A DNA stretch of 64,000 bases from the NCBI RefSeq assembly GCF_000621865.1, contig NZ_KK211359.1, positions 154,592 through 218,591 on the forward strand, given 5' to 3'. Below are positions 5,015 to 49,976 of the stretch, piece by piece; the first letter of the stretch is position 1; each line of letters starts with the position of its first letter. Both the position numbers and the translations under genes were made by a program. The notes beneath the pieces are model-generated. The model made no database searches. It had not been told where the DNA came from and was given only the letters and a program-made list of their open reading frames with translations. This stretch comes from Pseudobutyrivibrio sp. MD2005. Its GTDB lineage: Bacteria > Bacillota > Clostridia > Lachnospirales > Lachnospiraceae.

Positions 5015-5097
5015 GCCTGTAGGTAACAAGCTATTTGTACTCTCAAGCGAGGCGTGTTGCCGAGCGGAGAGTATGAATGCTTGTTACCGTAACAGGC
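5015..5097 (+). repeat. Structured hairpin repeat, copy A
   Basis: A three-tier stem. Outer 6 bp: GCCTGT / ACAGGC. Middle 10 bp: GGTAACAAGC (5022-5031) / GCTTGTTACC (5079-5088). Inner 7 bp: TACTCTC (5038-5044) / GAGAGTA (5067-5073). The outer and middle stems are separated by A on the left and GTA on the right. The 22-nt apex (5045-5066) contains GA, GGC-GTGTT-GCC, GA. It ends 9 bases before the scpA ribosome-binding site and has no T-run, so it is not a terminator. It shares architecture with copies at 17679, 49783 and 49888. Confidence 0.85.
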
Positions 5098-5119
5098 GGA
5101 TTAAAAGGGAGAGAAAAAC

Positions 5120-5875
5120 TTGGAGATGAATGTTAAGCTTCAGGCGTTTGAGGGTCCTCTGGATTTGCTTCTTCACCTGATAGACAAAAATAAAGTTGAT
5201 ATTTACGATATTCCTATTGTTGAGATTACAGATCAGTATATGGAATATGTTAGGGCTATGGATAATAGCGACTTGGATGTTATGTCTGAGTTTTTATTGA
5301 TGGCTACTACACTTCTAGATATCAAGAGCCGCATGCTTCTTCCAAGAGAGGAAAAGGAAGAGGAAGGTGAGGATGAGGAAGATCCACGTGCAGAACTTGT
5401 TCAGCAGTTGCTGGAATACAAGATGTACAAGACTATTTCTTATCAGCTTAGAGATAGACAGATGGATGCAAGCCTTGTATTCTATAAGGAGCCTTCCATT
5501 CCAGATGAAGTTTTGAAGTATGAGCAGCCTGTAGATTTAGAGGAGCTTATGAGCGATTTAACACTTAATAAGCTTAACGATATTTTTAATCAGGTGCTTA
5601 AGAGACAGGATAATAGAAGGGATCCAATTCGTTCTACTTTTGGCAAGATTAAAAAAGAAGAAGTTTCCCTTGAGCAAAAGATGGAATGGACTATCGCATT
5701 TGCGAAGTTACATAATACATTTAGTTTTAGAACACTGCTTGAAGCAGCACATTCAAAGACAGAGGTTATCGTTACTTTCCTTTGTATTTTAGAGATGATG
5801 AAGGCTGGACAAATCAATATCACACAGGAAGATACATTCACTGATATTATTATTGAATCAAAGATTGCAGCCTAA
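5120..5875 (+). CDS. scpA: Segregation and condensation protein A
   Basis: The kleisin subunit that bridges SMC heads and binds ScpB in the bacterial condensin complex. At 251 residues it is normal for the family. The N-terminal FEGPLDLLLHLIDKNKVDIYDIPI signature is clear, followed by an acidic linker (about residues 73-91) and a C-terminal winged-helix region. TTG 5120 is preferred because GGGAGAG ends 6 bases upstream; ATG 5126 is the alternative. It is followed by scpB after 14 bases. The SMC partner is encoded in this window at 32977. The long leader with a consensus promoter and a structured repeat is unusual. Confidence 0.96.
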   Translation: MEMNVKLQAFEGPLDLLLHLIDKNKVDIYDIPIVEITDQYMEYVRAMDNSDLDVMSEFLLMATTLLDIKSRMLLPREEKEEEGEDEEDPRAELVQQLLEYKMYKTISYQLRDRQMDASLVFYKEPSIPDEVLKYEQPVDLEELMSDLTLNKLNDIFNQVLKRQDNRRDPIRSTFGKIKKEEVSLEQKMEWTIAFAKLHNTFSFRTLLEAAHSKTEVIVTFLCILEMMKAGQINITQEDTFTDIIIESKIAA

Positions 5876-5889
5876 AATAAGAGGACGTT

Positions 5890-6462
5890 ATGAAACAAAA
5901 AGAGATAAAGACTATAGTTGAGGGCATACTTTTTGCTATGGGTGGAACTGTCGAGCCATCTAAGATTGCAAAGGCCCTTGAAATTGATGATAAAGAAGTT
6001 GTTGAAGCAATCGTATCCTTGAAAGAGGATTATGAAAAACAAAAAAGAGGTATTACAATTACTGAGCTTGAGGGCTCATATCAGATGTGCACTAGCCCTG
6101 ATATTTACGAATACCTTATCAGAATTGCAAAGCAGCCTAAGAAGTATGTACTTACAGATGTTCTTCTTGAGACATTGTCTATTATTGCTTACAAGCAGCC
6201 AATCACTAAATCTGAAATAGAAAAGATTCGTGGGGTTTCTAGTGATTTTGCTGTTTCAAAGCTTGTTGAATATGGTCTTTGCACAGAACTTGGTCGTCTT
6301 GATGCGCCAGGTCGTCCAATGCTTTTTGGTACCACAGAAGAGTTCTTACGTTCATTTGGCGTAAGCTCTATTGAGGAGCTTCCAGAACTATCTCAAACTC
6401 AAATCGAAGAGTTTAAAATGGAGGCAGAAAACGAAGCAAATAATGTGGAAGTTACTGTTTAA
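5890..6462 (+). CDS. scpB: Segregation and condensation protein B
   Basis: Dimeric winged-helix protein that binds ScpA and stimulates SMC ATPase during chromosome segregation. It has 190 residues. The family core LETLSIIAYKQPITKSEIE is followed by IRGVSSDFAVSKL and LGRLDAPGRPMLFGTTEEFLRSF. An acidic tail ends the protein. It is co-transcribed with scpA and ends at a strong terminator. Confidence 0.96.
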   Translation: MKQKEIKTIVEGILFAMGGTVEPSKIAKALEIDDKEVVEAIVSLKEDYEKQKRGITITELEGSYQMCTSPDIYEYLIRIAKQPKKYVLTDVLLETLSIIAYKQPITKSEIEKIRGVSSDFAVSKLVEYGLCTELGRLDAPGRPMLFGTTEEFLRSFGVSSIEELPELSQTQIEEFKMEAENEANNVEVTV

Positions 6463-6478
6463 TTTAATAAGGATTTCA

Positions 6479-6511
6479 ATAGCCAATTCGTGATACGAAT
6501 TGGCTATTTTT
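6479..6511 (+). terminator. Terminator after scpB
   Basis: A 12-bp perfect stem (6479-6490 with 6496-6507), loop TGATA, then a T-run. Confidence 0.85.
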
Positions 6512-6574
6512 GCAAGTAAAATACTAACCAATGTTTGTCTCAGAAAATTGTGATAATTTTTTAACATAATCACA

Positions 6575-6603
6575 TTGAAATGGGGTGTCAAAATGTTTAT
6601 CAT
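6575..6603 (+). promoter_or_regulatory. Candidate promoter of the decarboxylase operon
   Basis: TTGAAA (6575-6580), 17 bases, TATCAT (6598-6603). A 6-bp inverted repeat TGTGAT / ATCACA (6549-6554 and 6569-6574) lies immediately upstream and could be an operator. Confidence 0.45.
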
Positions 6604-6651
6604 TATACTTGCGAGAAATTTTGAAACAATTTATATAAATGGAGGTATAAG

Positions 6652-7986
6652 ATGGGTAATGATTTAAATCAGGCTCAGGCTAGAATTAATGCATTGCTTG
6701 ACGAGAATAGCTTTGTAGAGCTACAGTCTTTAGTCACAAGTAGAAGCACTGATTTTAACCTTGACGCAAAGAAAGAACCATCCGACGGAGTAATTATTGG
6801 ACATGGTCTCGTAGACGGAACTTTGGTTTTTGTGTTCAGCCAGAATGCTGATGTTTTGGGTGGAACAATCGGCGAAATGCACGCTAAGAAAATCCTTTCA
6901 GTTTACGACATGGCTCTTAAGGTTGGAGCTCCAGTCATTGGATTTATTGATTGTGGTGGTGTTAGACTTCAGGAGTCTTTTGATGCGCTCGAGGCACTTG
7001 GCTCAGTTATCGAAAGAGCTGCAGATGTTAAAGGGGTTATTCCACAGCTTATGTGTGTTGCAGGACAGTGCGGCGGCGGACTTTCAGTTCTCCCAGCTCT
7101 TGCAGATTTCACATTTATGGTTGATGGAGCTTCATTGTTTATTAATTCACCTGATGCTATTACTGGCAATAGCGCAGATAAGTGCGATACATCATCAGCT
7201 GAGTTCCAGTTTAATGAGGCAGGAACAGTTGATGTTCATGGTTCATTAGATGAAGTTGTATCATCTATGAGACAGGTTATCTCTATGATTCCAAATGATA
7301 TCGTAGAGGCTTCTGATGATCTTAACAGAGCAGCAGAAGGATTAGAGGACAAGCTTTCTGATGCGGCTGCAGTTGCTACAGAGCTTGCAGACAACAGACA
7401 GTTCATCGAGCTTAAGGCTGGTTTTGCTAAGGAAATGGTTACAGGTCTTATGAAGCTTGATGGTGTTACAATTGGTGTTGTTGGTAACAGAGAGGTAGAT
7501 GGAGAAGCAATTCTTTCAGCTGCTGGATGTGAGAAGGCTGCAGATTTTGTTGACCTTTGTGATATGTATGAGATTCCAGTGCTTTCTATTACAAACGTTG
7601 CGGCATTCAAGACATGCACATGCCAGGAAAGACGTCTTCCTAGAGCTCTTTCTCAGATGGCACAGAGATTCGTTGATGCTAGCGTACCAAAGCTTAATCT
7701 TATTACAAAGCAGGGCTATGGCACGCCATACGTTCTTATGAATTCTAAGTCACTTGGTGCTGATTTAGTATATGCATTTGATTCTACAGCAGTTGGCGCT
7801 ATGGAAGCTTCTAAGGCAGCTAAGATTTTAGCTGATAATGGAACAGATGCTGCTTCAATCGAGAAGAGCTATGCTGAGCTTCAGGACAGCGCTCTTACAG
7901 CAGCAGCACATGGTCATATCGATAGAATCGTTTCTATGGCTGATGCTAGAAAATATATTATTGCAGGATTTGAAATGTTCTTTTAG
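6652..7986 (+). CDS. Acyl-CoA carboxyltransferase subunit (MmdA / 12S-like)
   Basis: Carboxyltransferase-domain protein of the family that includes methylmalonyl-CoA decarboxylase alpha, propionyl-CoA carboxylase beta and the 12S subunit of transcarboxylase. It should move a carboxyl group between an acyl-CoA and carrier-bound biotin. The GG(V)-rich oxyanion segments are visible, for example FIDCGGVRLQES and VAGQCGGGLSVLPALADF in the N-terminal half, and a KQGYGTPYVLMNSKSLGADL stretch in the C-terminal half. At 444 residues it is shorter than the roughly 510 of typical MmdA. It is first in a five-gene operon with an OadG-like protein, a biotin carrier, OadB and OadA. Substrate cannot be fixed from sequence; malonyl-, methylmalonyl- or glutaconyl-CoA are options. 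Confidence 0.8.
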   Translation: MGNDLNQAQARINALLDENSFVELQSLVTSRSTDFNLDAKKEPSDGVIIGHGLVDGTLVFVFSQNADVLGGTIGEMHAKKILSVYDMALKVGAPVIGFIDCGGVRLQESFDALEALGSVIERAADVKGVIPQLMCVAGQCGGGLSVLPALADFTFMVDGASLFINSPDAITGNSADKCDTSSAEFQFNEAGTVDVHGSLDEVVSSMRQVISMIPNDIVEASDDLNRAAEGLEDKLSDAAAVATELADNRQFIELKAGFAKEMVTGLMKLDGVTIGVVGNREVDGEAILSAAGCEKAADFVDLCDMYEIPVLSITNVAAFKTCTCQERRLPRALSQMAQRFVDASVPKLNLITKQGYGTPYVLMNSKSLGADLVYAFDSTAVGAMEASKAAKILADNGTDAASIEKSYAELQDSALTAAAHGHIDRIVSMADARKYIIAGFEMFF

Positions 7987-8003
7987 AGCAGGAAGGTGAC
8001 AAT

Positions 8004-8858
8004 ATGAAGAAAAAATTATCATTACTTTTATGCACCTTAGTACTTGCTCTTGGTGTTACATCTTGCGGTAAGGTTTCAGATGATGATGAAATCGCAGGAC
8101 GTACAGTTAAAGAATACCGTGCCGAAATCACAAGCTACATGGAAGCGTACGGCGATGTATTAGCTGGTGATAGTACTGAGCTTAAGACACAGTTGTCTGC
8201 AGAGCTTGCTGCATATTATCAAACAACTTTAGATGAATATGCAAAAGCTCAGGGAATGACAACAGATCAGCTTGTGGCTATGTTTGCAGATCAGTATTTA
8301 GCTAATGCTGGAACAATTGTGTTCCCTGAAGATAGCACAGTACTTTCTGATTTTACAGAAGAGTTCAAAAGTGTAGTTGATGAGGCTGGTGAGTATAAAG
8401 GTGTAGGAGAATGTAAGGTTGAAAAGTCTGGTAAGACAGTTACTTCAACACTTATAGGAGATTTCTCAAAGAGAGATCTTAAGATGACATTTGTTTATTC
8501 AACACTTGATACATCAGTGCCTACAGCAATGAATATTGAGCCTGTTTACACATTAGGCGAGACAATGCAGAAGGCAGCACTTAATACAGTAATGGGAATA
8601 CTTATTGTATTCTGTATGTTGATTATTATGTCCGGCGTTATTAAGTGCTTTGAGATTATTCCTAAGCTTCAGAATAAAGCTAAGGATAAGGCTGAGAAGG
8701 CTGAGGCTGCATCTGTTGCAACAGTAGCTCCTCAGGTAACAGCTACAAAAGAAACAGATGATTTACAGTTAGTTGCAGTTATAGCTGCTGCAATTGCTGC
8801 AAGTACGGGGGCTTCTACAGATTCGTTTGTAGTTCGTTCTATCAAGAAAAGACATTAA
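8004..8858 (+). CDS. OadG-family small subunit with N-terminal lipoprotein domain
   Basis: Likely membrane anchor or assembly subunit of the sodium-pumping decarboxylase. The N-terminus is a lipoprotein signal (lipobox LGVTSC, lipidated Cys 21). An extracytoplasmic domain of about 165 residues follows. One membrane helix at about residues 190-212 (TVMGILIVFCMLIIMSGVI) resembles the OadG / MmdD helix, and a charged Ala/Lys-rich cytoplasmic tail ends the protein. At 284 residues it is about three times the length of classical OadG (about 80-130). The extra exported domain is the odd part; its function is not evident. The gene lies between the carboxyltransferase and the biotin carrier, where a gamma or delta subunit is expected. 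Confidence 0.7.
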   Translation: MKKKLSLLLCTLVLALGVTSCGKVSDDDEIAGRTVKEYRAEITSYMEAYGDVLAGDSTELKTQLSAELAAYYQTTLDEYAKAQGMTTDQLVAMFADQYLANAGTIVFPEDSTVLSDFTEEFKSVVDEAGEYKGVGECKVEKSGKTVTSTLIGDFSKRDLKMTFVYSTLDTSVPTAMNIEPVYTLGETMQKAALNTVMGILIVFCMLIIMSGVIKCFEIIPKLQNKAKDKAEKAEAASVATVAPQVTATKETDDLQLVAVIAAAIAASTGASTDSFVVRSIKKRH

Positions 8859-8875
8859 TTTTTAGGAGGAATACC

Positions 8876-9232
8876 ATGAAAAACTATACAATTACTGTTA
8901 ACGGAACAGTTTATGATGTTACTGTAGAAGATAAAGGAGGTTCTGGCGTATCTCCAGTTACTCCAGCAGCTGCTCCTAAGGCAGCAGCTCCAGCACCAGC
9001 AGCAACAGGTTCTGCAGGTGGCGTTAAGATCGAAGCAGGTGCTGCAGGAAAGGTTGTAAAGATTGCAGCAAGTGCAGGCACAGCAGTTAAGAAGGGTGAT
9101 CCAGTAGTAGTACTTGAGGTTATGAAGATGGAAACACCTGTTGTTGCACCACAGGATGGTACTGTTGCATCTATCAACTGCAACGAAGGTCAGCAGGTTG
9201 ATGCTGGCGCATTACTTGCAACTATGAACTAA
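8876..9232 (+). CDS. Biotin carboxyl carrier protein of the decarboxylase
   Basis: A 118-residue carrier. A short N-terminal part is followed by an Ala/Pro linker (about 25-48) and a biotinyl domain with EVMKMETPV; Lys 84 is the biotinylation site. It shuttles carboxyl groups from the carboxyltransferase(s) to the membrane beta subunit. It resembles MmdC, GcdC and the 1.3S transcarboxylase subunit. As the only biotin domain in the operon, it must serve both carboxyltransferases present (inference). Confidence 0.92.
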   Translation: MKNYTITVNGTVYDVTVEDKGGSGVSPVTPAAAPKAAAPAPAATGSAGGVKIEAGAAGKVVKIAASAGTAVKKGDPVVVLEVMKMETPVVAPQDGTVASINCNEGQQVDAGALLATMN

Positions 9233-9246
9233 TAGGAGGAATTCAC

Positions 9247-10395
9247 ATGAGTTACGTTGGAGAGACATTGTTGAACCTCGCTCATCAGACTGCATTTTTC
9301 AATCTGACTTGGGGTAACTATGTCATGATAGCGGTTGCCTGTGTTTTCCTTTTCCTTGCAATTAAAAAGGGATACGAGCCATTACTTCTTTTGCCTATCG
9401 CATTTGGTATGTTGCTTGTTAACATTTATCCTGACATTATTGCATCGCCTGAGGAAACATCTAACGGTGTAGGCGGCTTGCTTTATTATTTCTACACTCT
9501 TGATGAGTGGTCAATTCTTCCTTCGCTTATTTTCATGGGCGTTGGAGCAATGACAGATTTCGGTCCACTTATTGCTAATCCAATAAGCTTTTGGCTTGGT
9601 GCGGCAGCACAGATTGGTATCTTTACAGCTTACCTTCTTGCAATCCTTTTAGGATTCTCAGATCAGGCAGCTGCTGCAGTATCAATTATCGGTGGTGCAG
9701 ATGGACCTACATCTATTTTCTTAGCTGGTAAGTTAGGACAGTCGGCACTTATGGGACCAATTGCCGTTGCGGCATACTCATATATGTCACTTGTACCTAT
9801 CATTCAGCCACCTATCATGAAGGCTCTTACTACAAAGGAAGAGCGTGCGATTAAGATGGCACAGCTTAGACCTGTATCAAAGCTTGAGAAGATTCTCTTC
9901 CCAATCGTTGTTACAATTATCGTTTGTTTGATTTTACCTACAACAGCTCCACTTGTTGGTATGCTTATGCTTGGTAACCTCTTTAAGGAGTCAGGCGTTG
10001 TTAATCAGCTTACAGAGACTGCATCAAATGCACTTATGTATATCGTAGTTATTTTACTTGGTACATCAGTTGGTGCATCTACATCTGCTGAAGCATTCCT
10101 TAACGCAGCAACACTTAAGATTGTAGTTCTTGGTCTTGTTGCATTCGTATTTGGTACAGCTGCAGGCGTTCTTTTCGGTAAAATTCTTTGCCATGCTACA
10201 CACGGCAAGATTAATCCACTTATTGGTTCGGCTGGTGTATCTGCCGTTCCTATGGCTGCTCGTGTATCTCAGAAGGTTGGTGCAGAAGAAGACCCTACAA
10301 ACTTCTTACTTATGCACGCTATGGGACCAAACGTTGCAGGTGTTATTGGTACAGCTGTAGCGGCCGGCGTATTTATGGCTATTTTTGGAGTCTAA
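9247..10395 (+). CDS. Sodium ion-translocating decarboxylase, beta subunit
   Basis: Integral membrane subunit that decarboxylates carboxybiotin and exports sodium ions (OadB / MmdB / GcdB family). It has 382 residues and many hydrophobic segments. The conserved GGADGPTSIFLA loop is at about 149-160, with D152 matching the aspartate essential for sodium transport in characterised OadB. NFLLMHAMGPNVAGVIGTAVAAG near the C-terminus is a family hallmark. Its presence argues that the operon is an ion pump and not only a soluble transcarboxylase. Confidence 0.93.
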   Translation: MSYVGETLLNLAHQTAFFNLTWGNYVMIAVACVFLFLAIKKGYEPLLLLPIAFGMLLVNIYPDIIASPEETSNGVGGLLYYFYTLDEWSILPSLIFMGVGAMTDFGPLIANPISFWLGAAAQIGIFTAYLLAILLGFSDQAAAAVSIIGGADGPTSIFLAGKLGQSALMGPIAVAAYSYMSLVPIIQPPIMKALTTKEERAIKMAQLRPVSKLEKILFPIVVTIIVCLILPTTAPLVGMLMLGNLFKESGVVNQLTETASNALMYIVVILLGTSVGASTSAEAFLNAATLKIVVLGLVAFVFGTAAGVLFGKILCHATHGKINPLIGSAGVSAVPMAARVSQKVGAEEDPTNFLLMHAMGPNVAGVIGTAVAAGVFMAIFGV

Positions 10396-10432
10396 GATAC
10401 GTTTAAACTTTAATTATTAGGAGGAAAATATA

Positions 10433-11851: not shown

Positions 11852-11866
11852 TTAACGCAAATTTTA

Positions 11867-11902
11867 AAGGCGATGCAAGATTTCTTGCATTGCCTTTTTT
11901 TA
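11867..11902 (+). terminator. Terminator of the decarboxylase operon
   Basis: A 13-bp stem with one mismatch (11867-11879 with 11884-11896) and a long T-run. The right arm contains the -35 of the next promoter. Confidence 0.9.
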
Positions 11903-11913
11903 TATAATATAAT
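11885..11913 (+). promoter_or_regulatory. Promoter of the RpiR-type regulator gene
   Basis: TTGCAT (11885-11890), 17 bases, TATAAT (11908-11913). The -35 lies inside the right arm of the preceding terminator. Confidence 0.6.
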
Positions 11914-11945
11914 TAAATCCCTATTAATTTTTTATGAGGTATTTT

Positions 11946-12860: not shown

Positions 12861-12861
12861 T

Positions 12862-14091: not shown

Positions 14092-14112
14092 GATTTTGGA
14101 GGATATATTATT

Positions 14113-17678: not shown

Positions 17679-17769
17679 GCTATCTAGCTACATTCACAAG
17701 CCTTCAGATACTCCGCTCAGCAACACGCTTCGCTTGAGTATCCAAAGAGCTTGTGAATTGCTAGATAGC
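17679..17769 (-). repeat. Structured hairpin repeat, copy B
   Basis: Read on the minus strand. Outer 10-bp stem GCTATCTAGC / GCTAGATAGC. Middle 10-bp stem ATTCACAAGC / GCTTGTGAAT with A on the left and GTA on the right between them. Inner 7-bp stem GATACTC / GAGTATC. The 22-nt apex (17714-17735) differs from copy A at only two positions, and those two would pair with each other (G-C in A, A-T in B). On the plus strand the hairpin is followed by ATTTTTG, so it may also end the cheR transcript. Confidence 0.85.
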
Positions 17770-17863: not shown

Positions 17864-18925
17864 TTAGTGCTTCAGCATGTATCGACATACTTTGACGAGT
17901 AGTGTAGGGGTGAGGTCGGCGATATCTACGTAGGCTTCTTTGGAGTCGTAGGATGGCTTGAAGAGGCGTGTAGATGTGCCTATATCGATTTTTTCTGGAA
18001 GGGCAAGGAATTGTCCTTCTTTTTTTACTTTGCAGTCGGCGCGCTTGGCTGGGCGACGACTGTTTTTGTCCATGCTTTCGCCTAATGATTTTGGAATTAT
18101 AATGTCTTCGTTTATGAGATAGTAATAGTTCTTGTAATCTGGCAGGAAAGTATAAAGTGGGCCTTCAAACAGATTCAGAGTAACGTATATACGGTTCTGC
18201 TTTATAATATATAATCCGTATTCACGTTGTTTGCTAATCTGGTTTGGCAAGTCTATATCAATTTCAATTTCAAATCGAAGCTTATCGCCTGATATTTCGT
18301 GACTTACATATCGTAAATCCGTAGTGAGAAGCTCTGGGTAAGATAGGATATCAGTGATATAAATCATTCCTTTGACGTCTTCATAGTTGTGAAGTAGGAT
18401 AAGTTCTTTGGCACTATTATCGTCTGTTAAGGAATAATGTTGATATACCGGGATAAGCTCGCCGCCGTTGTATTTGTCGTCTCTATGAAGACCTAAGAAT
18501 TCTTCGATTGTCTTTTGTTTATAGTTAGGCAAATCAAGAAGACATCTAGCCTTGGTAGTTCTAAGGTACATGTCTGTATGGCATTTTGATTTGATTGCAG
18601 TGTTAAACTTGTATTTTCGACATCTTTCAACAATAAAAGACTCATCAAAGCGTGTAGAATTAAAGCCTAAAAGCTTATTGAAGTTTGACATTACTTTTTC
18701 AAATTCTTCAATGATTTCCAATTCTTCTGATTCGTTTTTTGCTAAAAGTTGAGTTATTGTAACAGTATTTCCTTTTCTTGTTGCATATCCAATAAGATAT
18801 ATAAAGGATTTTCTAGGCGAAAGACCTGTGCACTCTATATCGAAAAATAGTGTGGTCTCATCAAAATAAATATCGTAAACACGATTTACTTTTTCTAATT
18901 GATAACTGTTATTTATAATTTCCAT
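17864..18925 (-). CDS. YprB-like DEDD exonuclease (ribonuclease H-like domain)
   Basis: A 353-residue predicted 3'-5' exonuclease. The first acidic motif is FFDIECTGLSP, the second region is GFNSTRFDESFIVERC, and the third is LLHNYEDVKGMIYI; together they fit the DEDD / RNase_H_2 fold of the YprB family. The C-terminal 150 residues are not assigned. The start is ATG at 18923-18925, preceded by GAGAGAAAAG; the longer frame to 19036 lacks a site and would run through the promoter region. It converges on cheR and is divergent from rnfC. Substrate is unknown. Confidence 0.8.
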   Translation of the reverse strand: MEIINNSYQLEKVNRVYDIYFDETTLFFDIECTGLSPRKSFIYLIGYATRKGNTVTITQLLAKNESEELEIIEEFEKVMSNFNKLLGFNSTRFDESFIVERCRKYKFNTAIKSKCHTDMYLRTTKARCLLDLPNYKQKTIEEFLGLHRDDKYNGGELIPVYQHYSLTDDNSAKELILLHNYEDVKGMIYITDILSYPELLTTDLRYVSHEISGDKLRFEIEIDIDLPNQISKQREYGLYIIKQNRIYVTLNLFEGPLYTFLPDYKNYYYLINEDIIIPKSLGESMDKNSRRPAKRADCKVKKEGQFLALPEKIDIGTSTRLFKPSYDSKEAYVDIADLTPTLLVKVCRYMLKH

Positions 18926-19023
18926 AATTCTTTTCTCTCTATATAAACCTATTGTTAAATTATACACAAACTTTGCTGATTTGGTACTAAAAAATGTACA
19001 AAATAAATGATAAATTTTATCTC

Positions 19024-19052
19024 TTGCTTGATGCAAAATGATACAATATTAA
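19024..19052 (+). promoter_or_regulatory. Possible promoter of the rnf operon
   Basis: TTGCTT (19024-19029), 17 bases, TATTAA (19047-19052). The match is modest; TTGATG with TATAAA is an alternative in the same place. It is the only non-coding stretch before the operon. Confidence 0.35.
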
Positions 19053-32261: not shown

Positions 32262-32966
32262 TTGAACAACGATTTAAAAGAGTTTCAAAAGATTATCGGT
32301 TATGAGTTTAGAGACGAAAGCTTACTAAAGCAGGCACTTACACATAGTTCATATGCTAATGAACATCACATGCCTAAGCTTAGTGACAATGAGAGGCTAG
32401 AATTTTTAGGTGATGCTGTGCTTGAAATTGTTTCTAGTGAGTTTTTGTATCTAAATTATTCTGATTTAAATGAAGGAAAGCTATCTAGGCTTAGAGCTAG
32501 TATTGTATGCGAGCCTACACTTGCTTTTATCTGTAAAGAAATTAATCTAGGAGATTTTGTGCTGCTTTCAAAAGGAGAAGATATGACTGGTGGACGCGAA
32601 AGAAAGTCCATTCTTTCAGATGCTTTCGAGGCAACAATCGGAGCTATTTTCCTTGATGGTGGCATGGAACCTGCCTCAAAATACATTCATCGCTTTGTAT
32701 TAAATGATATTGAACACAAGCAGTTGTTCCATGATAGCAAGACTAGGCTTCAAGAAGTGGTTCAGGCTAATTATAAGGAGCCTCTTACCTACAATCTTAT
32801 TTCTGAGTCAGGACCAGATCATGCTAAGGAATTTAAAGTAGAAGCTGTAGTTGGTGAAAGAGTCTTAGGAACTGGTGTAGGACGCACTAAAAAGGCAGCT
32901 GAGCAGGAAGCTGCCTACGAAGGTCTCATGCGTCTCCACAAGGAAGATTCGATAAAAATAATTTAG
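32262..32966 (+). CDS. rnc: Ribonuclease III
   Basis: Double-strand-specific endonuclease for rRNA and mRNA processing. It has 234 residues. The catalytic signature is NERLEFLGDAVLEIV in the N-terminal domain. The C-terminal dsRNA-binding domain contains TKKAAEQEAAYEGLM. The start is TTG 32262 with GGAGAG about 6 bases upstream; the nearby ATG is out of frame. It precedes smc by 10 bases, a common Firmicute arrangement. Confidence 0.95.
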   Translation: MNNDLKEFQKIIGYEFRDESLLKQALTHSSYANEHHMPKLSDNERLEFLGDAVLEIVSSEFLYLNYSDLNEGKLSRLRASIVCEPTLAFICKEINLGDFVLLSKGEDMTGGRERKSILSDAFEATIGAIFLDGGMEPASKYIHRFVLNDIEHKQLFHDSKTRLQEVVQANYKEPLTYNLISESGPDHAKEFKVEAVVGERVLGTGVGRTKKAAEQEAAYEGLMRLHKEDSIKII

Positions 32967-32976
32967 GGAGAAATAG

Positions 32977-35900
32977 ATGTATCTTAAGAGTATTGAGTTA
33001 TATGGATTTAAGTCATTTGCTCATAAAATGAAGTTTGAATTTCATAACGGAATTACAGGTATCGTAGGTCCAAATGGTTCCGGAAAGAGTAATGTAGCTG
33101 ACGCTGTACGTTGGGTACTTGGAGAACAGTCTGCAAAGCAACTCCGTGGAGCTTCAATGCAGGATGTAATCTTCGCAGGTACAGAGGCAAGAAAGCCACT
33201 TTCATATGCTTATGTAGCACTTACAATGGATAATTCCGATCATGTGCTTCCAGTTGATTACGAGGAAGTAACAATAGCCAGACGTGTTTATCGTTCAGGC
33301 GAGAGCGAATATCTTTTAAATGGTACACCTTGCCGTTTGAAAGATGTATCAGAGCTTTTCTATGATACTGGTGTCGGTAAGGAAGGGTATTCTATTATCG
33401 GACAGGGTCAGATTGAAAAGATTTTGTCTGGTAAGCCAGAAGATAGACGTGAGCTTTTTGATGAAGCTGTTGGTATTGTTAAGTTTAAAAAGAGAAAAGC
33501 TGCATCTGTTAAGAAACTTGAAAGTGAAAGAGAGAATCTCGTTCGTGTAAATGATATTTTGTCTGAGCAGGAACGTCGTATCGGACCACTTGAAAAGCAG
33601 TCTGAAGACGCAAAACAATATTTAAAATATAAAGAAGAGCTTAAAAGAATAGATGTCAACTCATTTATGCTTGAAGTTGATAGACTTCAGGGCAATTTAG
33701 ATGAGGTCGAAAAGAACTCTAACATTGCTAAATCTCAATTAGAAGAAAGCAAGCATTCTCAGGAAGAAATTAGAGAAAAATATGACTCTTTGGAGCAGGA
33801 GATTTCTGCTCTTGATGAGCAAATCGAGACTTTGAAGAAGAATCAGTCTGATTCAACTCTTTTAAAAGGAAAGCTTGAAAATGAAATTGCTCTTTTAGAA
33901 GAGCAGATACGTTCTGCGAATGCAACAGATGAAAGCTTGTCATCTCGTATTGCAGAAATCGAGGCTGATAAAGCTGATAAGGAAAAACAGCTTGCTGATT
34001 TCACAAAAGAGAAAGAAAACCTTGATAAGACATTAGAGGAGGCTGTAGAACGCCTTACATCTGTTAAGGATAATTATTCAGAGCTTCAATCATTAATTAA
34101 TACAAATAACGAAAAGATTGAACAGGATAATAAGGCTATTATGGAATTGCTCAACAACAGAGCTTCCATAAAGTCTAAGGAGCAGCGTCTTGAGACAATG
34201 CTTGAGCAGACTAATATTCGTAAGGCAAAGCTTACACAGCGTCTTCTTGAGAGAAAGACTCGTGAGGAAGATTTAGATGTAGCTGTTACAAAGGCTGAAG
34301 AAGAATTTAAAGCTGCCCAGGGACTTCTCTTAGAGCTGCAGGATAAGGACAAAGAGTTCTCTGAAAAGGCTGTTGAATGGAAGAATAAGGCAAAGGAAAA
34401 TTCTACAAGCTTACAGGCTAAAAAGGATGAATTTGCCCGTGTTCAGACACGTTTAGAGTCTATCAAAAATATTGCAGAGCGCTATGAGGGTTACGGAAAT
34501 TCTACCCGTAAAATCATGGAGCAAAAAGGCAAAATCGAAGGTATCGAAGGTGTTGTTTCTGATATCATCCATGTTGAGAAAAAATATGAGATGGCTATCG
34601 AGACAGCTCTTGGCGGAAATATCCAAAATATCGTTACAAAGGATGAAGCCAGTGCTAAAAAGCTTATCAGCTACTTAAAGGAAAATAAGCTTGGACGTGC
34701 CACATTCCTTCCACTTACATCTGTAGATGGCCGTGGTAATTTCAAAAAGACAGAAGTTCTTAATGAAAAAGGTGTACTTGGTCTTGCGTCAGAGCTTATT
34801 ACTTGTGATAGCAAGTTTGATGGTGTTGTAGCTTACTTGCTTGGTCGAGTAGTTGTTACTGATCATATCGATTCGGCTATAGCTCTTGCAAAGAAAAATA
34901 ATTACAGCATTCACATCGTTACAATTGATGGTGAGTATTTGGCTCCCGGTGGTTCTATGGCCGGTGGTCATTTCAAGAATAAATCAAATCTTCTTGGAAG
35001 AAATAGAGAAATCGAAGAGCTTGAGTCAAAGCTTGATGTTATCTCGAAGGAGATGGATGAGCTAAATGCTAGAGCTACTGAAATAGAAACTGCTACAGCA
35101 CTTCTTGAATCAGATAGAGAAGATAATACAAACAAGTTAAATGAAGCGGCAATCGCTCTTAACACTGCAAAGCTTGGTCTTGATAGAGCTAATGAGCAGA
35201 AAAAAGAAAGTCTTACTGCTTACGAAGGTCTTTCTAAAGAGAGCGAAGAATTAGAGGCTCAGCTTTCTGAAATTGCTTCTGGAAGAAAAGAAATTGAGTT
35301 TGAAAAGCAGGAATCTGAAAATAGAGAGGCGGAACTCAAGGCCGAGATTAAAAAGCTTTCTGATGAAGTGGACGAAAAGACATACATGGAGACATCTGTT
35401 AACAGAACTATGTCTGAGGTTCAGATTGAAGAAGCTAATGCAAGACAGAAGGTTGAATTCGTTCAACAAAACTTAGACCGTGTTATTTCTGAAATTGAAA
35501 AATGCGATAATGATATTGCATCAATAAAAGAAAATGCAAAGTCTACAAAAGAAGAAACAGAGATTAAGAAAAAGCGTATCGAAGAAATCAAGGAGACAAT
35601 ATCTGCTTCTGATGAATCTTTCGGTCAGCTTGAATCAGAAATAAAAGAAGCTGTTGCTAAGAGAGAAGAGATGAATAATTCTCACAAGAATTTCTTCGAG
35701 CAACGTCAGGAAATTTCTGATAGAATTTCTGAACTTGATAAGGAAATCTATCGTTTGGATTCACAGAAGGAAAAGATTTCTGATGCAATTTCAAGTCAGA
35801 ATAACTACATGTGGAATGAGTACGAGTTGACTTACCACAGCGCTGAAGAGCTCAAGGATCCTGAGTACAATGATTTAGATCAGATGAAGAAGGATGCCAG

Positions 35901-41023: not shown

Positions 41024-41028
41024 TAATT

Positions 41029-41682: not shown

Positions 41683-41684
41683 CT

Positions 41685-42397: not shown

Positions 42398-42489
42398 CAT
42401 GATATTATTAATGAGTTGCTAAAGAAGAGATGGTCCTCTGTTATTCAATAGGGAATATCAAGAACGTCGCAGGTTTAGGAGGAATTAAA

Positions 42490-42840: not shown

Positions 42841-42852
42841 TCTCGAAAGTTC

Positions 42853-42888
42853 GAACACTCGCTTTGCTGCGAGTGTTCTTTATTTTTA
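42853..42888 (+). terminator. Terminator after rplS
   Basis: A perfect 10-bp stem GAACACTCGC / GCGAGTGTTC with loop TTTGCT, then TTTATTTTTA. Confidence 0.85.
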
Positions 42889-42933
42889 TGGCAAAGTGCG
42901 GTATATTTATACTAAAGATTAAAGGGAATAATT

Positions 42934-43530: not shown

Positions 43531-43547
43531 ATATTTGAGAGGTGATT

Positions 43548-44387: not shown

Positions 44388-44390
44388 GAC

Positions 44391-45083
44391 ATGAAGGTAA
44401 TAGACTTTAACGAAGAGGAAAAAATTAAAAGAGATATCGAAAGAGCAAGCCGAAACATGAATAATGTTGAAGATTTGTCTAATTTCGATTCAAAAACAAA
44501 AAAGAAAGCCAAGATGGTTGAAGAGGATGATAATCCTGAAAAAGAATCTCTTGGCAAAGAAGTAATAAGCGTAATAATCAATGTTATAATATGTTTTTTT
44601 ATTGTATTTTTGATTACTCATTTTATAGGACAGAGAACTGTTGTTAGTGGTTCTTCAATGGAAGATACACTTTCAGATGGAGACAATCTTATCGTTGATA
44701 AAATCAGCTATAGATTTCACGACCCAGAACGTTTTGATGTAGTTGTATTTCCTTATAAATACGAGGAAGACACTTATTATATCAAGCGTATCATAGGGCT
44801 TCCAGGGGAAGTTGTTAAGATAGACAGCGCAGGTACCATCTACATTAATGGAGAGATTTTGCCTGAAAACTACGGCACAGAGGAAATACTTAATGCAGGT
44901 CTTGCCAATAGCGAGATTTTACTTGGAGCTGGTGAATATTTTGTTTTAGGTGACAACCGAAATAATAGTACTGATTCAAGATTCGAATCAGTGGGAAATA
45001 TAAAAGGCGAAGATATTGTTGGTAAAGCCTGGCTTAGAATCTATCCATTTAATGAATTTGAACTTGTAGATAACATTGAATAA
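44391..45083 (+). CDS. lepB: Signal peptidase I (second of two)
   Basis: A 230-residue paralogue of the enzyme at 42934. A charged cytoplasmic N-terminus of about 55 residues precedes the membrane helix (about 58-79). Catalytic Ser 89 is in SGSSMEDTLSDGD, the lysine in YYIKRIIGLPGE, and GDNRNNSTDSRFESVG closes the fold. It starts 3 bases after rbgA and has only a weak ribosome-binding site, suggesting translational coupling. Confidence 0.95.
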   Translation: MKVIDFNEEEKIKRDIERASRNMNNVEDLSNFDSKTKKKAKMVEEDDNPEKESLGKEVISVIINVIICFFIVFLITHFIGQRTVVSGSSMEDTLSDGDNLIVDKISYRFHDPERFDVVVFPYKYEEDTYYIKRIIGLPGEVVKIDSAGTIYINGEILPENYGTEEILNAGLANSEILLGAGEYFVLGDNRNNSTDSRFESVGNIKGEDIVGKAWLRIYPFNEFELVDNIE

Positions 45084-45084
45084 T

Positions 45085-45849
45085 ATGAGCGAGAAAAAGA
45101 TTTCAGAAATCCAAAAAGAATATAAAGAGACTGATATTTTAGAGCTGCCTGATTTTATTGAAGAGTACATGAATGATGGCAGACCAGGCGTTTCAAAGAT
45201 TATAGGCGTAGCTCAAAAACGTATGGAAAAATTACGTGTTGAGCAGGCTAGAATTGAAAAGCTTAAAGAATTCGAGAATAAATATTGGGATGAATATCAA
45301 TACATTGGTGGTATTGATGAGGTGGGCAGAGGCCCTCTTGCAGGACCTGTTGTTACAGCTTGTGTTGTCCTTCCTAAGGATTGCAGCATTCTTTATATTA
45401 ATGATTCTAAAAAGCTTTCAGCTGCTAAAAGAGATGAGCTTTATGAGATAATCATGAAGGAAGCTGTATCTGTAGGAATAGGTGTAGTTTCTGAGGCTAG
45501 AATTGACGAGATTAACATCTTACAGGCTACCTATGAAGCTATGAGACAGGCTATTAAAGAATCTTCAGTAGAGCCTCAGCTGCTTTTAAATGATGCAGTT
45601 ACTATTCCAGAGGTTAAAATACCTCAGGTTCCTATTATTAAAGGTGATGCAAAATCCATCAGCATTGGTGCAGCAAGCATCATTGCAAAGGTTACTAGGG
45701 ATAGAATGATGGTTGAATATGACAGTATTTATCCAGAATACCATTTTGCATCCAATAAGGGCTATGGCAGTGCAGAGCATATTGAGGCTTTGAAAAAATA
45801 TGGTCCATGTCCAATACATAGAAGATCTTTCATTGGCAACTTTGTGTGA
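45085..45849 (+). CDS. rnhB: Ribonuclease HII
   Basis: Cuts RNA in RNA-DNA hybrids and misincorporated ribonucleotides. It has 254 residues: an N-terminal extension of about 70 residues as in Bacillus RnhB, then the catalytic core with GGIDEVGRGPLAGPVV, LPKDCSILYINDSKKLS and CPIHRRSF. It starts one base after the lepB stop. No clear ribosome-binding site is seen, so coupling is likely. Confidence 0.96.
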   Translation: MSEKKISEIQKEYKETDILELPDFIEEYMNDGRPGVSKIIGVAQKRMEKLRVEQARIEKLKEFENKYWDEYQYIGGIDEVGRGPLAGPVVTACVVLPKDCSILYINDSKKLSAAKRDELYEIIMKEAVSVGIGVVSEARIDEINILQATYEAMRQAIKESSVEPQLLLNDAVTIPEVKIPQVPIIKGDAKSISIGAASIIAKVTRDRMMVEYDSIYPEYHFASNKGYGSAEHIEALKKYGPCPIHRRSFIGNFV

Positions 45850-45868
45850 TTGGTTAAATAGGTGAACT

Positions 45869-47800
45869 ATGAACATTAACACAGGATTGAATTCTTATAA
45901 TACTAATTTTGTTAATAATACTGTAAACAGTGCCAAAATGAGTCAGAGTCAATCCCTTACTGGGTCTGTCACCGATTCATTAAAAGAGGGCGAAGTATTT
46001 GAAGGCTCTGTAAATTCTATTGAGAATGGCAAAGTGACTATCGGTCTTGCTAATGGGCAGACTATGACTGCCAGATTAGATGCGGGAGTTAGTATTACAC
46101 CTGGTCAATCCATTTTCTTTGAGGTAAAGAGTAATGATGGCAATCTTGTTCAGATTAGGCCTGTTTCCCTTAATGCGTTAGATGCTAATCCAACTTTGCT
46201 TAAAGCTCTTGATATGGCTAATCTTGCGGCTACAGAGCGTACAATCAACATGGTTAATTCGATGATGCAAAATTCAATGAGCGTTAGCCCTGAGAATCTT
46301 GCTGCTATGAATCGCGCAATGATTAATAATCCGGATGTTGATATTCAGACACTTGTTACAATGACAAAGCATGGTATGGAACTGACACCTGACAATGTGA
46401 ATATGTTTCAAAACTATGCTAGCGATAAAGCTATTCTTACTGATAATTTCGATACTATTTCTGAAATGCTGCCTGAACTTATGGCATCAGACGAGCTTTC
46501 CTCAACAGATGTAATCAGCATAAACAACGCTATAAAAGAGATTTTTGTGTCAGGACAACCTGCCACTATGGAAGGTGTGCCTGTAGAAGGCGCAAATACT
46601 GCTGCACAGCAGGCTGTAACTGAAACAGTGGAGGAAAACTTTAATGTAGCGCCTCAAGCTGCTGTAGAGGCAAATGAACCGTCTGCGCAGGCGCAGAGAA
46701 TAGGCCAAGAAGCACCTATATTAGAAGGTGAAGCTTTAATTGTTAAAGATGGTGATGCTACAGCTGTACCAAAGGAAAATTTGACACAGCTTGACGGCTT
46801 AGCAGAAAATATAAGTATGCCTTCGGCAGCTTCTACACAAGTAACGCCAGAAACTACGGGGCCTCAGAATATTGCACCATCTGCAGAGGCTACAGGGGCT
46901 GATGTAGCATTATTAGAAGTTGTGGATTCTGAAAATGGTGCCCATTTAATAAACAGCCTTAGTACAGAAAAGCAGATTGATTCGTTTAATGTGGTATTAA
47001 ACAATCTTCCGGATTTTCCAAAGGACAATCTGGAAATCTTTTCAGAGGATGGAAGCCTCAGGGCTGATGCTGATGTGAAGCAGGTATTTAGAGAAATTAC
47101 AGAATACTTAAATAATCATCCTGATATTCCAAAGGAGACGCTGAATGATATTGTACGGGAGCCACTGTACAAAAACCTTTTGAAGAATATAATAACAAGC
47201 AGCTTTGCAATGGAGCCTAAGGATGTGACAAAGCCGGGAGAAATTTCAAAGCTTTATGAGCGTGTGCTAAAGCAGACAGAGGCATTAGAAAGACTGGTTT
47301 CAAGTTTTAACAATAAGGCAGCTGATGCTATTAAGAATCAGACAAATGAGATTAAGCAGAATGTTAATTTTATGAATTCTGCTAATGAGATGTATAATTT
47401 TGTTCAGATTCCCCTTAAGATGTATAATCAGAATACAGACAGTATGCTTTACGTAAAGCAGAATAAGAAAAGCTCTTATGAAGCCGGTGAAGAAATTACT
47501 GCTTTTTTGCATTTTGATATGGAATATCTTGGTTCTACAGATGTATTTATCAGCCTTAAGGAGGCAAATGTTGCCTGTAAATGGAATCTTGCAAGCGAAG
47601 AATCCATGAAGCTAATAGAAAATAATTTGGATATTCTTACAGAAAGGCTTGCGGCAAAGGGATTTTCAATGTCGGCATCTGTCACTTGTAACGAGCCAAG
47701 AGCCAGCTTTGTTGAGGATTTCCTTGGGGAACCTCCAGTTTCTGCTGATAAGCCTACTGACGGTATGGTACACAGATATAGCTTTGATATGAGGGCGTAA
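45869..47800 (+). CDS. FliK-like / YlqG-type protein of unknown role
   Basis: A 643-residue protein without signal peptide. Residues about 45-100 form a beta-rich segment (GSVNSIENGKVTIGLANGQ). A long Ala/Glu/Gln-rich middle of low complexity follows. The C-terminal 130 residues (FVQIPLKMYNQ onward, with FLHFDMEYLGSTDVFISL) resemble the C-terminal domain of flagellar hook-length protein FliK. In Bacillus subtilis, ylqG and ylqH occupy the same position after rnhB. No flagellar gene is nearby. The next gene is an FlhB C-terminal-like protein, the partner of FliK in type III export, so the pair may be a non-flagellar relic or a new module. Confidence 0.65.
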   Translation: MNINTGLNSYNTNFVNNTVNSAKMSQSQSLTGSVTDSLKEGEVFEGSVNSIENGKVTIGLANGQTMTARLDAGVSITPGQSIFFEVKSNDGNLVQIRPVSLNALDANPTLLKALDMANLAATERTINMVNSMMQNSMSVSPENLAAMNRAMINNPDVDIQTLVTMTKHGMELTPDNVNMFQNYASDKAILTDNFDTISEMLPELMASDELSSTDVISINNAIKEIFVSGQPATMEGVPVEGANTAAQQAVTETVEENFNVAPQAAVEANEPSAQAQRIGQEAPILEGEALIVKDGDATAVPKENLTQLDGLAENISMPSAASTQVTPETTGPQNIAPSAEATGADVALLEVVDSENGAHLINSLSTEKQIDSFNVVLNNLPDFPKDNLEIFSEDGSLRADADVKQVFREITEYLNNHPDIPKETLNDIVREPLYKNLLKNIITSSFAMEPKDVTKPGEISKLYERVLKQTEALERLVSSFNNKAADAIKNQTNEIKQNVNFMNSANEMYNFVQIPLKMYNQNTDSMLYVKQNKKSSYEAGEEITAFLHFDMEYLGSTDVFISLKEANVACKWNLASEESMKLIENNLDILTERLAAKGFSMSASVTCNEPRASFVEDFLGEPPVSADKPTDGMVHRYSFDMRA

Positions 47801-47802
47801 AT

Positions 47803-48090
47803 ATGGCTGAAGAAAAGGTTGTTGACAAAAACAAAACTGCCGTGGCACTATCTTATGAGGCGGGGGATTCTGCGCCTAGGATTCTTGCTTCTGGTAAAGG
47901 GTATGTTGCCGAACAGATTATACAAGAAGCCAAGAAAGCTGATGTTCCTTTTTATCAGGATAACGAGCTTGCCCAGACACTTAGCAAGCTAAACATTGGG
48001 GACGCAATTCCTCCAGAGCTATACGAGGTTGTTGCGGAGATTTTGGTTTTTGTTAACGATATGGAAAAGATAAAATCAAAGCTAGGATAG
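47803..48090 (+). CDS. FlhB C-terminal domain homologue (YlqH-like)
   Basis: A 95-residue soluble protein similar to the cytoplasmic C-terminal domain of FlhB / YscU export-switch proteins (NKTAVALSYE... SAPRILASGKGYVAEQIIQEA... VPFYQDNELAQTL). The membrane part and the self-cleaving NPTH motif are missing; the sequence begins where the motif would end. It follows the FliK-like gene by 2 bases. Function is unknown. Confidence 0.8.
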   Translation: MAEEKVVDKNKTAVALSYEAGDSAPRILASGKGYVAEQIIQEAKKADVPFYQDNELAQTLSKLNIGDAIPPELYEVVAEILVFVNDMEKIKSKLG

Positions 48091-48094
48091 GTTG

Positions 48095-48454
48095 ATGAAT
48101 AACAGAAGACAAGGAAATGATTTTGAAAAGCTTGCAGCTGATTATTTAGTCAGGGAAGGCATGACAATAATTAAGCTTAATTTCTACTGTAAGATGGGCG
48201 AGGTAGACATCATTGCAAAAGATGGAGATTACTTAGTTTTTGTTGAAGTTAAATATAGAAAATCAGCTTCAAAAGGTAGTGGATTTGAAGCGGTTAATTA
48301 TAATAAAATGAGAAAGATTTCCAGGGTGGCCGATTATTATATGTACAGCCACCATTTTAATGGAGATACAAATGTTAGGTTTGATGTTGTTGCAATAGAG
48401 GAAGGACATTTAAAGCATCTAAAAAATGCTTTTGAGTATATACCAGTATGTTAA
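48095..48454 (+). CDS. UPF0102 / YraN family putative endonuclease
   Basis: A 119-residue protein with an endonuclease-like fold. Family residues: GNDFEKLAADYLV near the start, then GEVDIIAKDGDYLVFVEVKYRKS, which carries the D/ExK catalytic pattern. ATG 48095 is preferred over TTG 48092. It overlaps the next gene by 7 bases. Substrate is not established for the family. Confidence 0.9.
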   Translation: MNNRRQGNDFEKLAADYLVREGMTIIKLNFYCKMGEVDIIAKDGDYLVFVEVKYRKSASKGSGFEAVNYNKMRKISRVADYYMYSHHFNGDTNVRFDVVAIEEGHLKHLKNAFEYIPVC

Positions 48455-49767
48455 ATTCAAGTCATAAAATCGCACAGGTAATGGAGGGAAGCCCTGCAGA
48501 TAGGGCGCATCTTATTCCTGGAGATATAATTACCAAAATAAATAATGCAGAGCTTGTAGATATTTTTGACTATCATTATTATTCTGATGATGCTGATATT
48601 ACAGTTGAGCTTCTGCATGAGGATGGCACCACAGAATCGGTCTTTGTTGAAAAGGAAGAGGGCGAGGATTTAGGAGTAATATTCTGCAATGGTCTAATGG
48701 ATGACTATAAATCCTGCTCTAATAAATGCGCATTCTGTTTTATTGATCAGATGCCGCCTGGCATGCGTGATACTTTGTATTTTAAAGATGATGATACAAG
48801 ACTTTCGTTCTTACAGGGCAATTATGTTACCCTTACCAATATGAAGATGGCCGATTTGGATCGTATCATTGCATACAAGCTTGGGCCAATCAATATATCT
48901 GTACATGCAACAAATCCAGAGCTTAGAAAGAAGCTTTTGCATAATAGATTTGCGGGCGATATCTTAGAAAAGATTAAAAAGCTTTATGATGCAGAAATTC
49001 CTATGAATGCGCAGGTTGTATCCTGTCCTGGGCTTAATGATGGGCCTGAGCTTGATCGTACAATTTCTGATTTGCTTTCATTTGCTCCAGTAATGAGCTC
49101 TATGTCGGTGGTTCCTGTTGGAATTACCAAATTTAGAGATGGACTTTTCCCACTTCGCACATATACAGCCGAAGAGGCAGGAAAGGTTATAGATCAGATT
49201 GAACACTGGCAGGAAATTGCCATGGAGCGAATAGGAAATCATTTTGTGCAAGCTTCAGATGAGTGGTATATTCTGGCAGGACGTCCTCTTCCTGAGGCAG
49301 ACAGGTATGACGGATTTATTCAGCTTGAAAACGGAGTAGGAATGCTAAGGCTTCTACATGAAGAGGTTTTAGATGCACTCGAAGATATAAAGAAGCCGCT
49401 ATTTATGAGAAAGCGCCATGTTACAATAGCTACAGGAAAGTTGGCGGCTCCATTCATGAGAGAATTAGCGGATATTATCACAGAAAAGTTCAATCGCGTC
49501 ACTGTAGATGTTGTAGAGATTCGAAACGAATTTTTCGGTGAAGAAATAACAGTTTCAGGTCTGATAACAGGTCAGGATTTAATTAAACAGCTTAGTGGAC
49601 GAAATCTGGGAGACAATCTTTTGTTATCCTGCACGATGCTTAGAAGTGGCGAAGAGGTATTCCTGGATGACATTACGCTTTCAGAGCTTGAGTCTACTTT
49701 ACAAGTTAAAACACGTATAGTACAATCAGACGGTCGCGATTTCGTATACGCGATAATAGGACGATAA
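48448..49767 (+). CDS. DUF512 protein with PDZ and radical SAM-like cluster motif
   Basis: A 439-residue protein. The N-terminal PDZ-like domain contains GSPADRAHLIPGDIITKIN. A CSNKCAFCFIDQMP motif (CxxxCxxC) suggests a 4Fe-4S cluster of radical SAM type. The DUF512 domain follows to the C-terminus. The family is widely conserved in Firmicutes beside der, as here. Its reaction is unknown. Confidence 0.85.
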   Translation: MLNSSHKIAQVMEGSPADRAHLIPGDIITKINNAELVDIFDYHYYSDDADITVELLHEDGTTESVFVEKEEGEDLGVIFCNGLMDDYKSCSNKCAFCFIDQMPPGMRDTLYFKDDDTRLSFLQGNYVTLTNMKMADLDRIIAYKLGPINISVHATNPELRKKLLHNRFAGDILEKIKKLYDAEIPMNAQVVSCPGLNDGPELDRTISDLLSFAPVMSSMSVVPVGITKFRDGLFPLRTYTAEEAGKVIDQIEHWQEIAMERIGNHFVQASDEWYILAGRPLPEADRYDGFIQLENGVGMLRLLHEEVLDALEDIKKPLFMRKRHVTIATGKLAAPFMRELADIITEKFNRVTVDVVEIRNEFFGEEITVSGLITGQDLIKQLSGRNLGDNLLLSCTMLRSGEEVFLDDITLSELESTLQVKTRIVQSDGRDFVYAIIGR

Positions 49768-49782
49768 AATTTACGCTGTGTT

Positions 49783-49868
49783 CAAAATCTTACGTTAACA
49801 ATGATTCCGAATTCTTACGTCGACTGATGTCTCCTTCAGAATTGAAATACATTGTTAACTAGATTTTG
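49783..49868 (-). repeat. Structured hairpin repeat, divergent copy D
   Basis: Read on the minus strand. Outer stem CAAAATCT / AGATTTTG. Then A on the left and GTA on the right. Middle 10-bp stem GTTAACAATG / CATTGTTAAC. Inner 6-bp stem AATTCT / AGAATT. The apex is again 22 nt (49816-49837) and has GA, GAC-ATCA-GTC, GA. Arm sequences differ from the other copies but the plan is the same. It points away from copy C, 19 bases further on. Confidence 0.75.
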
Positions 49869-49887
49869 TTCTACAGTTTATAGATGA

Positions 49888-49976
49888 GTAATCAGTAGTT
49901 CACAAGCTATTATGATTCTCAAGAGAAGCGTGCTGCTGAACGGAGAATTATAATGCTTGTGAACGTAACTGATTAC
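49888..49976 (+). repeat. Structured hairpin repeat, copy C
   Basis: Outer 9-bp stem GTAATCAGT / ACTGATTAC. A on the left and GTA on the right. Middle 10-bp stem GTTCACAAGC / GCTTGTGAAC. Inner 7-bp stem GATTCTC / GAGAATT with one G-T pair. The 22-nt apex (49921-49942) differs from copy B at three positions and keeps both GA dinucleotides. It ends just before the der ribosome-binding site and lacks a T-run. Confidence 0.85.

Follow-up and report, generated by a model that had tools for sequence, protein, structure and literature searches.

In the available portions of the cited papers, pneumococcal BOX elements are described as modular and transcribed, BOX, RUP and SPRITE as inserting into one another, and SPRITE as terminator-like (PMC3049150, PMC10969869). 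According to the accessible parts of further papers, ERIC of Yersinia and NEMIS/Correia of Neisseria are mRNA hairpins that alter transcript processing by RNase E or RNase III, and REP-like hairpins likewise act in cis as ribonuclease barriers or substrates (PMC2267715, PMC10969869, PMC3049150). The 64,000-nt stretch of Pseudobutyrivibrio sp. MD2005 analyzed here (the window; G000:C3:154592-218591, G000 being the host genome) contains four copies of a dispersed hairpin that resembles BOX, bcr1, ERIC, NEMIS and REP (repetitive extragenic palindrome) repeats in kind. The hairpin shows the features of structured mobile intergenic repeats, namely high copy number, intergenic placement, a common secondary structure and presence or absence between relatives. 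As far as the sources describe them, it is like BOX, RUP and SPRITE in being a high-copy intergenic structured repeat of a Gram-positive genus (PMC3049150, PMC10969869), and like Bacillus cereus bcr1 in being group-limited, with mobile features and a common secondary structure (PMC6542083, PMC2267715). Compared by description, it is unlike BOX (boxA, tandem boxB, boxC) in being a single hairpin with a near-invariant A / GTA loop, varied interiors and a strongly sense orientation, while bcr1, again by description, differs in its length of about 150 bp and its TTTAT motif (PMC6542083, PMC2267715). With GTAG REPs and REPINs, as partly available accounts present them (PMC3733652, PMC3116915), it shares a GTAG at the foot of most copies, inverted doublets, and unidirectional and convergent slots, but it is two to four times longer, its tag is paired, no linked RAYT was found and it lies near downstream starts. 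ERIC and NEMIS/Correia differ in belonging to unrelated hosts, and processing of the Pseudobutyrivibrio hairpin would be an extension by analogy. Sequence comparison supports a mobile-like, sense-oriented, structure-conserved element in likely transcribed spacers. With moderate confidence, it is read here as a genus-specific, high-copy, non-autonomous repeat whose working form is an mRNA hairpin, intercistronic or at the 3' end.

A preliminary description of the window had placed four copies in it, and all four were found where it put them. The copies, their flanks and a remnant are as follows:

5015..5097, + strand: copy A, with a 6-bp outer stem, an asymmetric A / GTA loop, a 10-bp middle stem, a near-continuous inner stem and a GA/GA apex, in the leader of scpA (start 5120)
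5098..5103, + strand: sequence motif GGATTA, 3' flank of copy A
17679..17769, - strand: copy B, with a 10-bp outer stem, in a convergent slot between cheR (+, ends 17658) and an RNase_H_2 gene (-, 17864-19036)
49783..49868, - strand: copy D, more diverged, antisense to the DUF512-der gene pair
49783-49976: copies D and C together, a divergent doublet (<- ->)
49882..49887, + strand: sequence motif AGATGA, 5' flank of copy C, other copies having similar flanks
49888..49976, + strand: copy C, with a 9-bp outer stem, in the leader of der (start 50002)
49977..49982, + strand: GGACTA, 3' flank of copy C, preceding the der ribosome-binding region, other copies being similar
58106..58122, + strand: remnant of a lost copy, the 3' outer arm ATAAATTGC plus GGACTAGG, where the relative G015 has the whole hairpin

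The common plan of outer stem, A / GTA loop and 10-bp middle stem was borne out by a scan of both strands for an A, a 10-bp stem (9/10 paired), a 25-69-nt loop, GTA and an outer stem (5/6), which returned A, B, C and D from the whole window and nothing else. The fold energy of each copy was unmatched by any of 200 shuffles on either strand, with sense-strand z values of -8.9 (A), -9.7 (B), -6.8 (D) and -7.7 (C). A covariance model built from the four copies (R1; 83 positions) scored A at 105, B at 102, C at 100 and D at 70 bits, and the remaining window matches, opposite strands of the copies excepted, reached at most 13.5 bits. Copy D, first listed with the others under one plan, is more diverged (70 vs 100-105 bits). 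In the four-copy alignment 93.9% of cells were paired, compared to 72.6% when shuffled and 33-44% when slid, and 18 of 33 pairs were changed on both sides; none of 500 shuffles equaled either value. The stem sequences vary while the pairing stays, as had been claimed. All four hairpins are genuine, with pairing beyond chance. Two finer points of the proposed fold required revision. The 5-6 nt TATTTN / TGAAT internal loop is mostly paired (A and B use U-G and G-U pairs there, and C is Watson-Crick throughout) with the first T alone bulged, and the 22-nt apex is itself structured, with a further small hairpin inside. Beyond the ends of the copies, the flanks judged by eye are clear in C (AGATGA 5', GGACTA 3') and weaker in A.

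The family is large and limited to one genus. The host genome contains at least 57 copies at E < 1e-5, one of them a 53-nt match; this is a lower bound because scoring covered just 150 of the 954 first-look candidates. Relaxing the limit to E up to 1 gave 58 matches, one being the opposite strand of a listed copy. Host copies share a mean identity of 64% (maximum 96%), and copies in a set of 58 measured 81-87 nt. Across 61 genomes (the host and 60 relatives) matches were present in 28, comprising 28 of the 29 same-genus genomes and none of the 32 genomes from other genera. Most of the 28 copy-bearing species carry dozens each; the low-copy genomes G021 (none), G007 (one) and G004 (four) are 82-86% complete. 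A second draw of 299 family genomes (the host, G014 and 297 of other genera) was searched with stricter filters and 15 candidates scored in each; eight genomes (G029-G036) were common to both draws, giving 321 other-genus genomes searched in all. Two weak other-genus matches were rejected on reading: L227 (28 bits) is an AT-rich hairpin, and L228 (25 bits) looks like coding sequence. The loci closest to the der protein of the window are from Pseudobutyrivibrio. A single exact pattern had no match in viral contigs in one of eight scans, a thin sample, and a plasmid blastn search with the der region gave five distant records, every one within the query part holding der. The earlier remark that the repeat could not be matched to a named RNA family agrees with the Rfam search of the window, which at gathering score returned one tRNA and otherwise nothing; at permissive thresholds the copy A stretch gave three matches far under their gathering scores and eight other loci gave none. 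No title on such repeats in Pseudobutyrivibrio was found in a literature search that covered subscription journals poorly, so absence in print is not established.

Many homologues and covarying pairs had been named in advance as support for a new family, and the covariance-model search of relatives returned numerous homologues with compensatory changes, some of them at one shared site across species. A wide alignment was assembled from 121 matches in 100 loci picked to limit duplicates, 120 of them distinct. Pairing in 95.0% of 3928 cells vs 69.4% when shuffled is a favored comparison because the alignment was fitted to the model. Among the 120 distinct copies, double-change cells numbered 908 vs 248 shuffled, and the covariation score was 0.634 vs 0.163 shuffled and at most 0.062 slid. 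The number of pairs with a double change (30/33 vs 25.7 shuffled, equaled by 1 of 500) is a weak measure here. With stems counted from the ends of 119 matches of 78-92 nt (one row, L043, is cut at its 3' end and adds a slight blur), the A bulge was present in 119/119, GTA in 115/119 and the bulged T in 109/119. The apex motif, GA-[3-bp or longer stem]-loop-[stem]-GA, occurred in 92 of the 119 vs a mean of 1.9 and a maximum of 7 in 200 apex shuffles. Wobble types in the same matches were strongly asymmetric (73 G·T, 10 A·C; binomial p 5.8e-13), and the sense RNA folded more stably than its complement in 116/119, with a mean sense-strand fold energy of -37.7 kcal/mol. The G·T excess and the greater sense stability suggest that selection acts on the single-stranded sense RNA. 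A DNA-level palindrome, whether held symmetric through template switching or serving in recombination as a cruciform or a folded single strand, would suit the palindromic DNA, the internal deletions in L088 and G008 and the varying of interiors over kept outer stems. It is extremely improbable as the explanation, given that template switching would erase the near-invariant A and GTA bulges and predicts no wobble strand asymmetry, and that orientation follows transcription.

Placement was examined with gene calls from a home-made codon-based caller that misses some genes. Copies lying wholly inside a called gene numbered 0 of 57 in the host and 0 of 59 in the relative G008. Of the host copies, 42 had a sense gene on either side, 7 preceded a convergent gene, 5 were antisense and 3 had one neighbor uncalled; the corresponding G008 values were 42, 12, 4 and 1. 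In co-directional slots of both genomes 84 copies were sense vs 9 antisense as called (binomial p 2e-16); copy B counts among the antisense ones only through a missed call, that of the minus-strand RNase_H_2 gene, and its true slot is convergent. The median gap to the next start codon was 28 nt in the host and 28.5 nt in G008, and AGATGA-like plus GGACTA-like flanks were detected by a crude pattern in 29 of 120 copies. None of the 116 host and G008 copies occupied a divergent slot, and the set of 120 held one case; with an expectation from 438 kb of 4% of slots or 10% of intergenic bases, this evidence is weak to moderate alone. Inverted doublets within 400 bp in the two genomes were all of the <- -> type (7/7, none -> <-; p 0.016), the der doublet being counted in both genomes among the seven pairs. 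A second class, resembling terminator stems, has an outer stem of at least 8 bp with a T-run close by (14/120 copies); the next gene was on the opposite strand in 12 of these 14 vs 22 of 103 others with a called next gene.

Forty-one genes downstream of host copies were listed, and the eight checked by profile were ScpA, Der, Obg, PurE, PurN, ValS, Pgk and Tpi, with GapA upstream of the Pgk copy; Pgk was identified by its half of a bifunctional model, under the cut-off of that model. The gap-pgk-tpi run carries one copy per gap. The other downstream genes, going by their first residues, we take to be a mixture of metabolic and housekeeping functions. A classical cis-regulatory RNA, serving as the ligand or protein leader of one regulon, could produce the leader position before starts, the strong covariation and the conserved apex motif. 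We consider such a role distinctly unlikely, since the downstream genes, eight of them checked by profile, look unrelated, sites are gained and lost between species, and a second class sits on terminators. A copy was also observed after the RNase III gene in three relatives (L225 241-325, L210 294-375, L214 327-407), a possible autoregulatory place; the corresponding slot in the window (32966-32977) is empty. Separately, at 55852-55913, about 70 nt before nrdD (55982), a long and imperfect hairpin with a T6 run behind it looks like a terminator- or attenuator-like leader of that gene.

Comparison of shared sites revealed extensive turnover. At DUF512-der, 24 Pseudobutyrivibrio loci (L102 left out) divide into 12 with a model match and 12 without, one of the latter, L099, holding a fragment. 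The C/D block is inverted in L085, and D is collapsed by an internal deletion in L088. In three species the block is 98-99% identical, and the flanking genes are 80-88% identical to those of the window (upstream gene 80-82%); between L116 and the window, D is 94% and C 85% identical. At plsY-gpsA (names by profile) 13 of 22 loci are filled, the window being empty there. At this site the outer stem joins GCTRGT to ACYAGC in 12 loci and to ACCGGC in the other; in two species one pair has changed from G-C to A-U, and by eye the interiors are of three apex types. The pattern used to choose these 13 sites takes the outer stem for granted, although the sites had been seen beforehand; R1 recovered 11 of them. 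At 58106-58122, behind nrdD, only the 3' arm survives in the window; G015 has the whole hairpin and G008 has it with a 48-bp internal gap. Slots common to the host and G008 account for 12 of the 57 host copies (59 in G008), of which L076 is doubtful (a 253-nt block at 75%). Outer bases were the same in 12/12 positions in two shared-site pairs with interiors at 58% (L077/L194) and 53% (L082/L206), and compensated outer pairs with a different interior were found at L028/L186, L061/L274 and L073/L274. Other shared slots hold what look like independent occupants.

Copies are also nested in copies (L008, L009, L065, L021). Beside whole copies, L009 (1600-1655) and L021 (1600-1665) carry tandem 3'-tail fragments (GTAAC...GGACTTTA-like and GCTTGTGAGYGTAACC-like). 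The type II apex pattern occurs in 16 and type III in 9 of the 29 genus genomes. A scan of about 1.5 Mb of loci for [AG]TGA / GGA[CT]T ends with a 6-bp stem yielded 49 elements, against 5 and 8 for two control motif pairs; in 31 of the 49 the interior measured 80-89 nt. Four elements with interiors under 75 nt, considered as ends without an insert, were judged to be chance. Another structured repeat, P2 (core GCGCGAGCAAGAGGGCCCCATACCGAG...GTATGGGAGATGGCTTGCGGG; G015:C58:116953-117077 in L232, others in L233-L241), has matches in 21 of 29 genus genomes and up to 37 in one, short partial matches included. At one slot with the same flanks a type II copy is present in G008 and a P2 module in G015, and four of nine P2 loci have [AG]TGA / GGACTA ends. 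In a modular mobile system operating at the RNA level, interior modules (apex types I, II, III and P2) would be swapped under a kept frame of outer stem and flanks, entering the loops of existing hairpins (terminators, other copies) and spreading mainly sense-strand in transcribed regions; the machinery would be something other than a Y1 transposase or reverse transcriptase of the host genome or G008. We regard this as an unlikely account.

Searches for a mobilizer bear on the remaining explanations. Y1_Tnp was not detected in the host genome or G008, while 10 of 29 genus genomes have a match; 12 Y1 loci, from 18 Y1 matches, held no hairpin copy. Reverse transcriptase (PF00078) was likewise absent from the host (0) and G008 (0) and present in 15 of 29 genus genomes, indicating that the genome need not encode it at present. 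Membership of the REP/REPIN superfamily, as a GTAG-tagged palindrome mobilized by a RAYT (Y1) transposase that was later lost, would agree with the GTAG at the middle-stem foot in 88/120 copies, the uniformly <- -> doublets and the unidirectional and convergent slots, which the available text of PMC3733652 reports for REPs. This origin is nonetheless doubtful: the host genome and G008 lack the transposase, the 12 Y1 loci held no copy, the tag, which should be unpaired, has its GT paired to an outer-stem AC, the unit is about 80-90 nt and not 20-40, and copies lie near the downstream start, whereas REPs lie near the upstream stop (PMC3733652, in the part available). By the tests made the repeat is not a REP, because its tag is paired, its unit is too long and no linked RAYT was found.

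A miniature inverted-repeat transposable element (MITE), a deletion derivative of a DDE transposon with terminal inverted repeats whose RNA structure is a by-product, would likewise be palindromic, non-coding and present or absent between relatives, and ends like TTTAGATGA / GGACTAAA recur on the second interior type (4 of 9 P2 loci). Target-site duplication showed no peak at any boundary for k of 3-8 in 119 copies, no larger parent element was recognizable as a distant half-site pair from two exact half-site patterns in the host genome (D-type copies are not covered, and L178, with two more half-sites, was left out), and the excess of G·T over A·C is unexpected of double-stranded ends. MITE identity was not borne out and is improbable. 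Of the half-sites inspected, C11:104302 was unpaired and by eye coding, and C10:35801 was a broken or nested copy and not a parent.

The preliminary description had offered a structured RNA, a protein-binding hairpin or a palindromic mobile element. The RNA and mobile-element readings are supported and compatible, with wobble asymmetry and placement favoring RNA and site turnover and nesting favoring a mobile element. The mRNA-hairpin reading draws on the fold with its compensatory changes, the sense bias, the placement, the turnover and the outer stem kept over different interiors. Several observations weigh against it. The sense bias could be explained by insertion preference rather than function. 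Copy D and some others are antisense, and the wider, partly redundant set of 120 includes 80 sense and 14 antisense copies. The identity of the C/D block above its flanks suggests recent spread at the der site, not slow constraint. In addition, G008 offers no counterpart slot for 45 of 57 host copies, which means that the majority cannot be essential, and the eight profile-checked genes show no obvious common regulon. Finally, the copies are related, so the shuffle and binomial significance is overstated.

As an mRNA hairpin, the transcribed repeat would form a long stable stem acting in cis on the operon message. By analogy with known repeats, the stem would most likely be a ribonuclease barrier or a processing site; RNase III is encoded in the window (32262-32966). 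Such an effect would set the relative amounts of neighboring cistrons, copies at 3' ends would extend the terminator hairpin, and the conserved GA/GA apex may be a protein-binding element. The repeat is unusual in its strong sense orientation near downstream starts, its near-invariant A/GTA loop with G-U asymmetry and its varied interiors under a kept frame.

Structured intergenic repeats have long been known, and an RNA role has been argued case by case. Here one genus supplies 28 sequenced copy-bearing species, filled and empty sites, same-site compensatory changes and varied interiors, making two questions directly testable: whether selection maintains repeats of this kind as mRNA elements, and by what route palindromic repeats can spread without a visible transposase. 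In their hosts, rumen bacteria of the genus Pseudobutyrivibrio, the hairpin may control the processing of operon messages.

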